Shown here: positions 33,947 to 38,360 of the stretch, one piece after another
Position numbering within the stretch: the stretch's first letter is position 1
How the letters are laid out: every line of letters begins with the position of its first letter
From: Bacillota bacterium
GTDB lineage: Bacteria > Bacillota > Limnochordia > Limnochordales > ZCTH02-B6
NCBI GenBank assembly: GCA_017656145.1
Contig: JACDOI010000009.1
Span: forward strand, 1-64,000
Length of the DNA: 64,000 nucleotides
Direction of reading: 5' to 3'
Position numbers and translations under genes: made by a program
Notes under the pieces: generated by a model
Databases searched by the model: none
The model's input: only the letters and a program-made list of their open reading frames with translations
Told to the model about the DNA's origin: nothing

Positions 33947-34022
33947 TTGACAGGTTAGACCTCCGGTTTCTAAAATGAAATCACGAACCATTATACTTGG
34001 TTTTTTCTGGTATAAGTGTAAT
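33947..34022 (+). promoter_or_regulatory. promoter TTGACA-18-TAAAAT plus imperfect inverted repeat ATTATACTT...AAGTGTAAT in the leader
   Basis: TTGACA 33947-33952, TAAAAT 33971-33976; arms 33990-33998 and 34014-34022 (one mismatch). Confidence 0.6.
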
Positions 34023-34044
34023 TGATGGAAGGAGGGATCCAACG

Positions 34045-35136
34045 ATGATGCTGAAACTCGTGGCCGGCGGACTGACGGGTGTCCTGTTCGGATTTATGGC
34101 GCAACGGGGACGGTTCTGCATGACATCGGCTTTCCGGGACCTTTACCTGACCCGGGATGCGACGTTGTTCAAGGCGTACATTCTCGTGTTGGCCATCCAG
34201 TCGGCCGCCATCTTCGCGCTCCACGGGGCGGGCGTCATCACGTTCGGAAACGACCCGTTCCGGTGGCTGGGAGCCGTGGCTGGTGGGCTCATCTTTGGAC
34301 TCTCCATGGTCCTGGCCGGCGGATGCGCAGCGGGCACCTTGTTCCGGGTCGGCGAAGGGCTGGTGGGCGCCCTCATCACCGCGGTGTTTTTTGCCATCGG
34401 CGCCCTGGCCTCCCGGGGGCAGGGGTTGCTGGCGCTCCTCGTTCAGCGGATCCAGGGGCCGTCCATTACCGTGAACGGAGCCACGAGCCTTTACGGCGCT
34501 CTGGGGATCAGCCCGTGGCTGCTGGTGGCCGCCCTGTGGGCGGTGGCGCTGGCTTTCCTTTGGCGATCCCGCCGGGAGCCGGCCCAGGCCTGGCAGTTGC
34601 CGACGGAGGAGGGCCGCTCGTCCCTGTGGCGCGCCGTCTTCGGGCAGGGGTGGTCGTGGCCGGTGACCGGAGTTGCCGTGGGGCTGATCTGCGTCGTGGG
34701 CTGGCTGACCTCCATCTCCACCGGCCGCATGGGCGGGCTTTCCATTGCCGGCGGCACGGCTAACCTCCTTCGGTTTTTCACGGTCACGGGCGATGGGGCA
34801 TTGCTCAACTGGGGCGAATGGCTGGTGCTGGGCATCCCGGTGGGCGGGTTCATCGCCTCCTGGGCGGCCGGCGAATTCCGGTTGCGCAGCCCCGGTGCCG
34901 CCCGGTTGTTGCAGCACATGGTAGGGGGACTCGGAATGGGGTTTGGGGCCACGCTAGCCCGGGGCTGCAACATCGGCAACGGTCTGGTGGCCGTCTCGCA
35001 GTTTTCCCTCAACGGGTGGACGGCGACGCTGTTTACGATTTTCGGCGTCTGGCTCGGGTCTTACCTGTTCCTCGTTCTGCCCAGCCGGCGGGCGGCGACG
35101 GCAGTGGGGGTCGTGCAGGAGGCCCCCAGCAGCTGA
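34045..35136 (+). CDS. YeeE/YedE family sulfur (thiosulfate) transporter, TsuA-like
   Basis: FGFMAQRGRFCMTSAFRD, VLAGGCAAGTLFRVGEG, GATLARGCNIGNGL conserved Cys motifs; 10 or so TM; strong GGAAGGAGGG SD. Confidence 0.9.
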   Translation: MMLKLVAGGLTGVLFGFMAQRGRFCMTSAFRDLYLTRDATLFKAYILVLAIQSAAIFALHGAGVITFGNDPFRWLGAVAGGLIFGLSMVLAGGCAAGTLFRVGEGLVGALITAVFFAIGALASRGQGLLALLVQRIQGPSITVNGATSLYGALGISPWLLVAALWAVALAFLWRSRREPAQAWQLPTEEGRSSLWRAVFGQGWSWPVTGVAVGLICVVGWLTSISTGRMGGLSIAGGTANLLRFFTVTGDGALLNWGEWLVLGIPVGGFIASWAAGEFRLRSPGAARLLQHMVGGLGMGFGATLARGCNIGNGLVAVSQFSLNGWTATLFTIFGVWLGSYLFLVLPSRRAATAVGVVQEAPSS

Positions 35137-35540: not shown

Positions 35541-38093
35541 TCACTCCCCGGCTGCGTCCAGCGCTTCGGCCAGGCCGTCGATCTCTTCCGCACCCACCGG
35601 TACGGTGATGGACGAGCCGGCGAAGTCGGCGCCGAAGGGCTCTAGGCGTCCCCCCAGCGTTTGATGGAAAAACGCCTCCTGAACCGCGTAGAACGAGATC
35701 CGGTTTTCCGGGCGAACGAACCCGTGGCCCTCATCGGGATACACCACGTAAGTGACCGGGATGTTCGCCGCCTGCATGGCTGAAACGATTTGCTCCGACT
35801 CCGCGGGCTTCACCCGGGGGTCGTTTTGTCCCTGGCCGATGAGCAGTGGCCGCCGGATCCGGTCCGCGTACGAAAGCGGCGACCGCTCGGCCAAAAACGC
35901 CCGGCCTTCCGGCGTCCGGTGGTCGCCCACCCGGGTGGCGAACATTTCCACTTGGGGCTCCCAATAGGGCGGGATCGATTCCAACAGCGTCACCAGGTTG
36001 GATGGCCCGACGATGGACACGCCGCAGGCGAACACGTCGGGCGTGAACGTCAACCCCACCAGGGCCGCGTACCCGCCGTAGCTGCCGCCGCTGATGCAGA
36101 TCTTGTCCGGAGCGGCGATGCCCTGATCAATAGCCCACCGGACCGCGTCTACCAGGTCGTCGTGCATGCGGCCGCCCCACTCGCGGTTGCCGGCGTTGAG
36201 AAACGCCTTGCCGAACCCGAGGGAACCCCGGAAGTTGACGCTCAGCACCGCATACCCCCGATTGGCCAGCCACTGGTGGATGGGGTTGTAGCCCCACATG
36301 TCCCGGCTCCACGGTCCACCGTGGACTTCCAAAACGAGCGGCAACGGCGTTCCGGGCACGTATCCTTCCGCCGGCTCATGCCACGGCGGGAGGGTCAGGT
36401 AGCTGACCAGCGAAAGCCCGTCCCGGGACGGGATGATCACCGGGTGCATCCGCGCGAGGGTGTACTGCTCCAGGGCCGACCGGTTGGTGAACAAAAACGC
36501 GGCCTCTCCGCGGTCCCGGTCATAGAGGTAGTAGCGAACGGGCCCGTTGTCCATTATGTATGCCACGACCCACCGGCGGTTGTCCAGCGTCTGGCTGACG
36601 ACGTCCCATTCCCCATCGGCCAGCTCCGAGAGGTACGCCATGTCCTGGGCGACGGCCGGATCCAGCGCCCGCCACTTCCGCCGCTCGTAGGTGGACGCGG
36701 CCGCCAGGATGGTCCGGTCCGCCGGATCGACGATGGCGTGGCTGACGTCCGCCCGGGGATCGGCAAACAGCACTTCGGCAGCGCCGGTTTCCAGGTCGAC
36801 GACGGTGAGGGCTGCGGTGTTGCGCCCCCGGCTGTCGATCATGTACAGCTTCGTGCCGGTCGCATCAAGGCCCACCGGCGCGGTGGTCATCGCGTCCTCC
36901 ATGGAGACCTGGACAAACGGTCGCCAGCCTTCCGGGGCGGCCGCGAAGATGGACAGGCCGCCGTCGGGGGCCGGCGCAATGCCGAATCGCACGTTGTAAT
37001 CGTCGTCAAGCAAGTAGCCCAGCATGCCTTCGTTCTGATGCAGCAACTGCCGTTGGCCGCTGACGAGGTTGATCAGGTATAAGTCGTGCAGCTGCGGGAT
37101 CCGGTCGTTGAGCCCCACCACGATTTCCTCGGGACGGCGAGGGCTTGTGGCGACGAGCGTCGCCTGCACGCCGGCCTCGGGCGTCAGCAGCTTGGTTTCA
37201 CCCGTCTTGACGTTGACGCTGTACAGCTTCCAGTTTTCATCGCCGTCGGTGTCCTGTACGTAGACGATATGGGTGTTGAGGTACGTCCACCCGTAGTTCA
37301 ACACGCCCCGGCCCCGATCGCTGGTGACGGGACGGGCCGCGGACAGATCGTCAACGGGGGCTACCCAGACATTGAGCACCCCCTCGTAGGGGGCCAGGTA
37401 GCTGATTCGGGTCCCGTCGGGGCTGAGCCGAACCGCCGCCCTGTCCGGGTCGCCGAACAGCACTTGCCGCGGGATCAGCGGCACCGGTTCGCTCGCCCCA
37501 TACGCCGGCCCGGTCCCGGCGACGGCGGCGAGCCAAGCCGCTGCCAGGCATACAAACAGCGTGTGGGATGTGTTGCGCGACCCGGTCGTGCCGCGCACTG
37601 CGACCCGTACGGCGTACAGCAGCGCGGTTGCGCCGGCCACGCCCATGGCTCCCTGGAAGATGTTGAGAGGGATGCCGGCGAAAGCCGCGGCCAGGTTTCC
37701 GGCCAGCGCGGCGCCGGATGCGAAATAGCCGGCCACCATCCACAGCGCGGCCAGCGCAAATCCTCCCAGCACCGGACCGCTTACGCCCCGCTCCTTGAAT
37801 GCCCCATGGACCAGACGCCCCGCGAGCCACCCTTCGACCCCTTTGATGATGAGGGTAAACGGGGCCCAGACGCCGTAGCCGCTTATCAGATCCGCCAGGG
37901 CGGAACCGATGCCCCCCGCCGCGGCGCCCACCAGGGGGCCGAACAAGGCGGCCAGGGCGAAAATGGCTGCATCGCCCACGTTGGCATACCCTTGCCCGGC
38001 GGGCATCGGGATCTGGATCAACATAGTGGCCACCGCCACCAGGGCGGCCCCCACGGCCGAAAACGCCAACCTGTGGGCAGGCTTGGTGTTCAT
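35541..38093 (-). CDS. ECF transporter S-component-like membrane domain fused to S9 (prolyl oligopeptidase/acylaminoacyl-peptidase) peptidase
   Basis: N-term YANVGDAAIFALAALFGPLVGAAAGGIGSALADLISGYGVWAPFTLIIKGVEG (ECF-S); signal-peptide-like HTLFVCLAAAWLAAVAGTGPAYGA; C-term ISGGSYGGYAAL, GQNDPRVKPAES, DEGHGFVRPEN (S9 triad). One open frame. Confidence 0.85.
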   Translation of the reverse strand: MNTKPAHRLAFSAVGAALVAVATMLIQIPMPAGQGYANVGDAAIFALAALFGPLVGAAAGGIGSALADLISGYGVWAPFTLIIKGVEGWLAGRLVHGAFKERGVSGPVLGGFALAALWMVAGYFASGAALAGNLAAAFAGIPLNIFQGAMGVAGATALLYAVRVAVRGTTGSRNTSHTLFVCLAAAWLAAVAGTGPAYGASEPVPLIPRQVLFGDPDRAAVRLSPDGTRISYLAPYEGVLNVWVAPVDDLSAARPVTSDRGRGVLNYGWTYLNTHIVYVQDTDGDENWKLYSVNVKTGETKLLTPEAGVQATLVATSPRRPEEIVVGLNDRIPQLHDLYLINLVSGQRQLLHQNEGMLGYLLDDDYNVRFGIAPAPDGGLSIFAAAPEGWRPFVQVSMEDAMTTAPVGLDATGTKLYMIDSRGRNTAALTVVDLETGAAEVLFADPRADVSHAIVDPADRTILAAASTYERRKWRALDPAVAQDMAYLSELADGEWDVVSQTLDNRRWVVAYIMDNGPVRYYLYDRDRGEAAFLFTNRSALEQYTLARMHPVIIPSRDGLSLVSYLTLPPWHEPAEGYVPGTPLPLVLEVHGGPWSRDMWGYNPIHQWLANRGYAVLSVNFRGSLGFGKAFLNAGNREWGGRMHDDLVDAVRWAIDQGIAAPDKICISGGSYGGYAALVGLTFTPDVFACGVSIVGPSNLVTLLESIPPYWEPQVEMFATRVGDHRTPEGRAFLAERSPLSYADRIRRPLLIGQGQNDPRVKPAESEQIVSAMQAANIPVTYVVYPDEGHGFVRPENRISFYAVQEAFFHQTLGGRLEPFGADFAGSSITVPVGAEEIDGLAEALDAAGE

Positions 38094-38360
38094 GACGGTC
38101 TTGACTCCTTTCCGTTTTCCCGGCCGCTTCGTTACCAACCGACTTCCGCTTATCAGTTCGCATGTGCGGGCCCGGTTCCTTTGGAAGTGCCGACCAGTTG
38201 CCCGCAGGCCCGCCCGGCGCAGACGCCGGGACATTTGTCCCAGGTTTCCGGGGAAAACGCACCTGCCTGGCCCCTGCGGCGTCTGCTAGACTCCCGCTGG
38301 GGTTTTGTGGTTCGAACGTTGCCCGTTCCCGCCCGGGAACAATGGGAAGGGGGCGACACC

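Follow-up and report, generated by a model that had tools for sequence, protein, structure and literature searches.

An open reading frame joining an ECF S-component to an S9 peptidase in a member of the Limnochordales: probably a recent, single-lineage fusion

A single uninterrupted reading frame on the minus strand, encoding 850 amino acids plus a stop codon, joins an ECF S-component to an S9 peptidase in the draft genome of a bacterium of the order Limnochordales (2.57 Mb, 116 contigs). The fused frame, open from 38093 to 35541 as the first-pass annotation of this DNA had described it, is confirmed as a real observation. The fusion occurs in a single lineage, and the account that it arose recently by a short deletion between two neighboring genes is, taken as a whole, considered fairly probable. 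It combines domains of two well-known families in a new way and, though real, is probably a minor, lineage-specific curiosity. The features discussed here are listed in Table 1, with positions given for the window, which is the whole 64-kb stretch of DNA analyzed and lies on contig 9.

Table 1 Features of the fused S-component/S9 peptidase frame in the window
Feature	Position	Strand	Basis or remark
Ribosome-binding site AAAGGAG before ATG 38093	38105..38111	-	-8.5 kcal/mol
Fused ORF, 850 aa plus stop codon	35541..38093	-	Frame and Pfam matches
ECF S-component domain PF07155, residues 7-162	37608..38075	-	Pfam and alignment
Seam, residues 163-200	37494..37607	-	Arg-rich cytosolic tail, then former signal peptide
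Internal GTG	37596..37598	-	Sole in-frame ATG/GTG/TTG directly before the signal-like segment
S9 peptidase part, residues 201-850	35544..37493	-	Beta-rich N-terminal region, then alpha/beta hydrolase
PF00326 catalytic domain, residues 605-815	35649..36281	-	Pfam
Ser671	36081-36083	-	Motif alignment
Asp758	35820-35822	-	Motif alignment
His790	35724-35726	-	Motif alignment

The frame ends at a stop codon at 35541-35543 and extends upstream without a stop to ATG 38234, which would give a product of 897 aa. The start is probably ATG 38093, since the AAAGGAG just upstream has a strong duplex energy, which is equalled at just 4 % of random positions. Third-position GC stays level through the seam (0.80, compared with 0.78-0.92 elsewhere).

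The N-terminal part was identified by Pfam profile search as an ECF S-component (PF07155; E 5e-34, 118 bits against a cut-off of 26.7), far above chance and in agreement with the first-pass annotation. Its hydropathy is compatible with six membrane helices, and AlphaFold2 confidence is below 50 in the same half. The AXXXA motif, which docks an S-component to EcfT (PMC11109136), is present in helix 1 (A13/A17), and among six aligned S-component sequences A17 is invariant and A13 is found in five, while K84, E87, Y123, N144 and Q147 are invariant in all six. S-components normally terminate after helix 6 (PMC11109136), with both termini cytosolic (PMC4860826); this usual, not strictly defining, end is not kept in the fused protein, where the frame runs about 690 aa past the S-component. 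A search for ecfA and ecfT elsewhere in the genome, as the first-pass annotation had proposed, recovered an EcfT gene (G000:C24:22436-23101) with two adjacent ABC ATPase genes, the module being located, as read from the sequence, between rpoA and truA. A second S-component gene of the same genome (G000:C52, L050 2573-3286), immediately following a BirA-like gene, was read as BioY.

Binding and import of a micronutrient by the S-component half are predicted from family membership, and several routes to a substrate were followed. The sole solved relative of this half by sequence is HmpT (PDB 4HZU chain S; PF07155 / TIGR04002-like; E 6e-13), for which a binding pocket and the ligand pyridoxamine are described (PMC4860826). 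The pocket Tyr, Asn and Gln of HmpT are matched by Y123, N144 and Q147, whereas its Glu41, His84 and Gln87 correspond to Asp41, Lys84 and Glu87 in the fused protein. Transfer of pyridoxamine from HmpT was rejected and this substrate should not be assumed, because three of the six pocket residues differ. Riboflavin, taken from the Pfam name, was not settled as the substrate, the NCBIfam riboflavin and TIGR04002 models both scoring below cut-off. The neighbors of standalone S-components vary between families and offer no consistent clue, and no riboswitch was found within the 64-kb window.

The C-terminal part is an S9 peptidase, as first annotated, with a Pfam match to the S9 catalytic domain (PF00326; E 7e-47, 160 bits against a cut-off of 22.6) and Ser, Asp and His residues that are identical in five standalone orthologues; peptidase activity of this half is predicted from the catalytic domain and the triad. 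An AlphaFold2 model of the fusion, run with three sequences, has a pLDDT of 52.6 overall and below 50 for residues 1-272, and in this low-confidence model, which was set aside, strands are predicted at residues 221-567, the region of the expected N-terminal beta-propeller. No named S9 subfamily, and no substrate, was accepted from NCBIfam, because all named equivalogs score far below cut-off; Dpp5 (93.5 against a cut-off of 900) and the lasso-peptide isopeptidase (77.5 against 400) are distant matches. Parts for both predicted activities are thus encoded in the genome, since the key residues of the S-component and the peptidase are kept and an ECF module is present.

Between the two halves, the tail that follows helix 6 contains Arg163, Arg167 and Arg173, fitting a cytosolic loop, and leads into a seventh hydrophobic segment at residues 178-195 (hydropathy 1.5-1.6). 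The suggestion that this segment is a former signal peptide is borne out by the orthologues, which have a signal-peptide-like segment exactly at the join. A candidate signal-peptidase site, AYG|A (residues 197-199, PAYG|AS), satisfies the -3/-1 rule with A197 and G199. The segment could alternatively be the start of a separate peptidase within a frame that is merely open, translation beginning a second time at GTG 37598, from which a textbook signal peptide (MRGTTGSRNTSHTLFVCLAAAWLAAVAGTGPAYG) would be made, or at ATG 37646 or GTG 37640 inside helix 6, where an AGGGAG stretch lies upstream (-7.2 kcal/mol at GTG 37640). GTG 37598 was first annotated as having no ribosome-binding site, and its duplex energy of -3.7 kcal/mol, matched by 37 % of random positions, agrees with this. 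The AGGGAG stretch encodes part of the Asn..Gln-Gly region of helix 6 that is kept in relatives, and the upstream gene has no stop codon, so that a read-through product would have to be made anyway. Two products from two starts are accordingly regarded as quite unlikely.

The origin of the frame is best seen at the same locus in relatives. In G002, a genome of the same family, the S-component and the S9 peptidase are two genes in the same order and on the same strand as in the window, with identities to the fused protein of about 59 % for the S-component and 72 % for the peptidase. The S-component of G002 ends ...HPRRPPAQ followed by TAA, with its stop at 980, and the peptidase starts near 1161, about 180 bp past that stop; it has a ribosome-binding site of its own (CAGAAAGGATGTG), and its N-terminus is signal-peptide-like. 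The stretch between the last S-component residue and the first S9 residue that could be matched is 306 bp long in G002 and 78 bp long in the window. The 228 bp by which they differ are a multiple of three, and the window has neither the stop and spacer nor the second gene's ribosome-binding site and start. G004, of the same family, likewise has a separate S9 gene with the ribosome-binding site CAGAAAGGATGTG, next to a truncated S-component and with order and strand unchanged. A two-gene arrangement with a stop codon at the matching place, which the first-pass annotation had named as telling against its reading, is thus largely what the close relatives have, and the unbroken frame stands for the present genome. 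The truncated gene of G004 (L035 2040-2336, G004:C178) lacks the N-terminal half of the domain, its start MSAQNR.. being out of frame with the surviving second half, and it is probably, from its sequence, a pseudogene or an assembly fault. The locus is syntenic: one flank has glutamate dehydrogenase and cupredoxin genes (window and G004), and in the window, G002 and G004 alike the opposite flank encodes a response regulator and a LysM/peptidoglycan-binding protein. In the window, the fusion and the LysM gene are separated by a Sulf_transp gene (PF04143, YeeE/YedE-type; 33997-35136), and a DUF5698/DUF2179 gene takes its place in G002 and G004, a local gene replacement.

Such a difference could also come from an assembly or sequencing artifact, in which the spacer was lost from a genome that really has two genes; the assembly is a draft in 116 contigs, and no further genome of the genus was among the relatives searched. 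A single-base error would not account for the seam, where 228 bp are missing in frame relative to G002. Both conserved domains and the signal-like segment came through this loss undamaged, the seam is in the interior of a 69.5-kb contig with normal third-position GC across it, and no repeats that could explain a deletion or favor a collapse were found there. An artifact is therefore held to be improbable.

Relatives of the S-component were found in 51 of 73 genomes of the class and in 65 of 200 sampled genomes of the phylum. The open frame around the S-component does not exceed 255 aa in the class or 313 aa in the phylum sample, compared with 914 aa here, and no second S-component/S9 fusion was found in any of the 51 class or 65 phylum-sample genomes with an S-component; the same fusion, sought in related genomes as the first-pass annotation had suggested, is absent from every other one searched. 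The fusion is known from one genome, and hence from a single lineage, and is probably recent, since among the genomes searched this one alone has a frame beyond about 313 aa. A literature search for S-component/peptidase fusions, or for internal signal peptides in fusions, found no papers in the collection covered. Compared with G002, the S-component has a pN/pS of 0.45 and the peptidase one of 0.35, averages that include the time before the fusion, and neither half looks abandoned by this measure.

Orthologues of the peptidase are standalone, with a signal-peptide-like N-terminus, in G001, G015, G020 and L032 (57-72 % identity). The S9 frame of G001 is broken: it matches as two pieces (L038 1255-2192, G001:C303; query residues 189-362 and 706-848), and this copy with a missing middle is a broken gene or an assembly collapse. 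The orthologues L036 and L037 of G015 and G020, which belong to another family of the class, are about 72 % similar, as close as the orthologues from within the family. A horizontal transfer involving the peptidase of G015 and G020 is possible, because the cross-family sequences are as similar and a genome search found no S-component relative in G015 or G020.

The fusion by short deletion would have started from an S-component gene directly followed by a gene whose product, an S9 peptidase, was exported. Deletion of about 228 bp, in frame, would have removed the first gene's end and stop codon together with the spacer and the second gene's ribosome-binding site and start. A single frame would then run from ATG 38093 to 35541, with translation beginning at the S-component. 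The direction of change, loss in the window and not gain in G002, is suggested by the fact that all other orthologues are separate. We infer the topology, cleavage and function of the fused protein as follows. The sixth helix would end on the cytosolic side and the short Arg-containing tail would stay inside; the former signal peptide (178-195) would then insert as a seventh membrane segment, its C-terminal end on the outside, and so export the peptidase. Signal peptidase could then cut at or near AYG|A, giving two proteins like the ancestral pair, and this outcome is considered more probable than a lasting tether. In an uncut protein the peptidase would remain anchored on the outside next to the S-component, and toppling of the S-component might be hindered, as proposed for extended receptors.

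The first-pass annotation had read the frame as a peptidase tethered to an uptake subunit. Under this reading the uncut fusion would have been favored by selection: close to the importer, the peptidase would free the S-component's substrate from a peptide or conjugate. The one frame, the placement of the seventh segment so as to put the peptidase outside, and the adjacency of the two genes in G002 and G004 agree with it. The adjacency is restricted to three genomes of one family, the fused genome included; the peptidase has no neighboring S-component in G001, G015, G020 and L032, no neighboring S9 gene was found in the inspected S-component relatives outside the family, and in G004 the S-component is truncated and the peptidase is intact. 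Transport also involves toppling of the S-component within the membrane (PMC4820897), and in related receptors with this fold a C-terminal extension has been proposed to restrict that movement (PMC11109136). With the fusion seen in a single genome and the genes not seen as neighbors outside the family, the proposed selected partnership of peptidase and importer was not upheld and is judged unlikely, while the tethering itself is uncertain because the signal-peptidase site seems to survive. Release of the ligand by the peptidase, also proposed at first, is unlikely to very unlikely, since nothing beyond gene adjacency links the peptidase to the S-component substrate, and an uncut seven-segment importer whose external peptidase makes or trims its own ligand is very unlikely.

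The fusion by short deletion is of modest interest unless the protein is made and kept as one chain. If one chain is made, it is a naturally occurring case in which to ask whether an S-component that carries a large C-terminal domain can still topple and transport, and whether an internal signal peptide is cut after a polytopic domain; if the chain is uncut and functional, it would be the first case of an extracellular enzyme attached to an S-component. Otherwise it is a clear example of a short deletion between neighbors that yields a new domain combination of little functional meaning.

Compared with known systems, the fused protein differs from the separate S-component and S9 genes of G002 and G004, which have the stop, spacer and second ribosome-binding site that it lacks, and from HmpT, which stops after helix 6 where the fused protein runs on into the peptidase. 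The 5TMR sensor histidine kinases (PMC11109136) have the same membrane fold and are likewise extended C-terminally by a soluble part, but their extensions are cytosolic signaling domains and they lack the AXXXA motif that is present here. The peptidase half has its catalytic domain and Ser/Asp/His motifs in common with the acylaminoacyl-peptidase / DPP-type S9 enzymes (PDB 5L8S), and is preceded by a predicted six-helix membrane domain in place of a plain signal peptide. If uncut, the fused peptidase would be anchored outside by the one helix preceding it, as in the S9 peptidases of the DPP4/FAP type. DPP4 has a single anchor, whereas the peptidase of the fused protein is preceded by a transporter subunit of six predicted helices.
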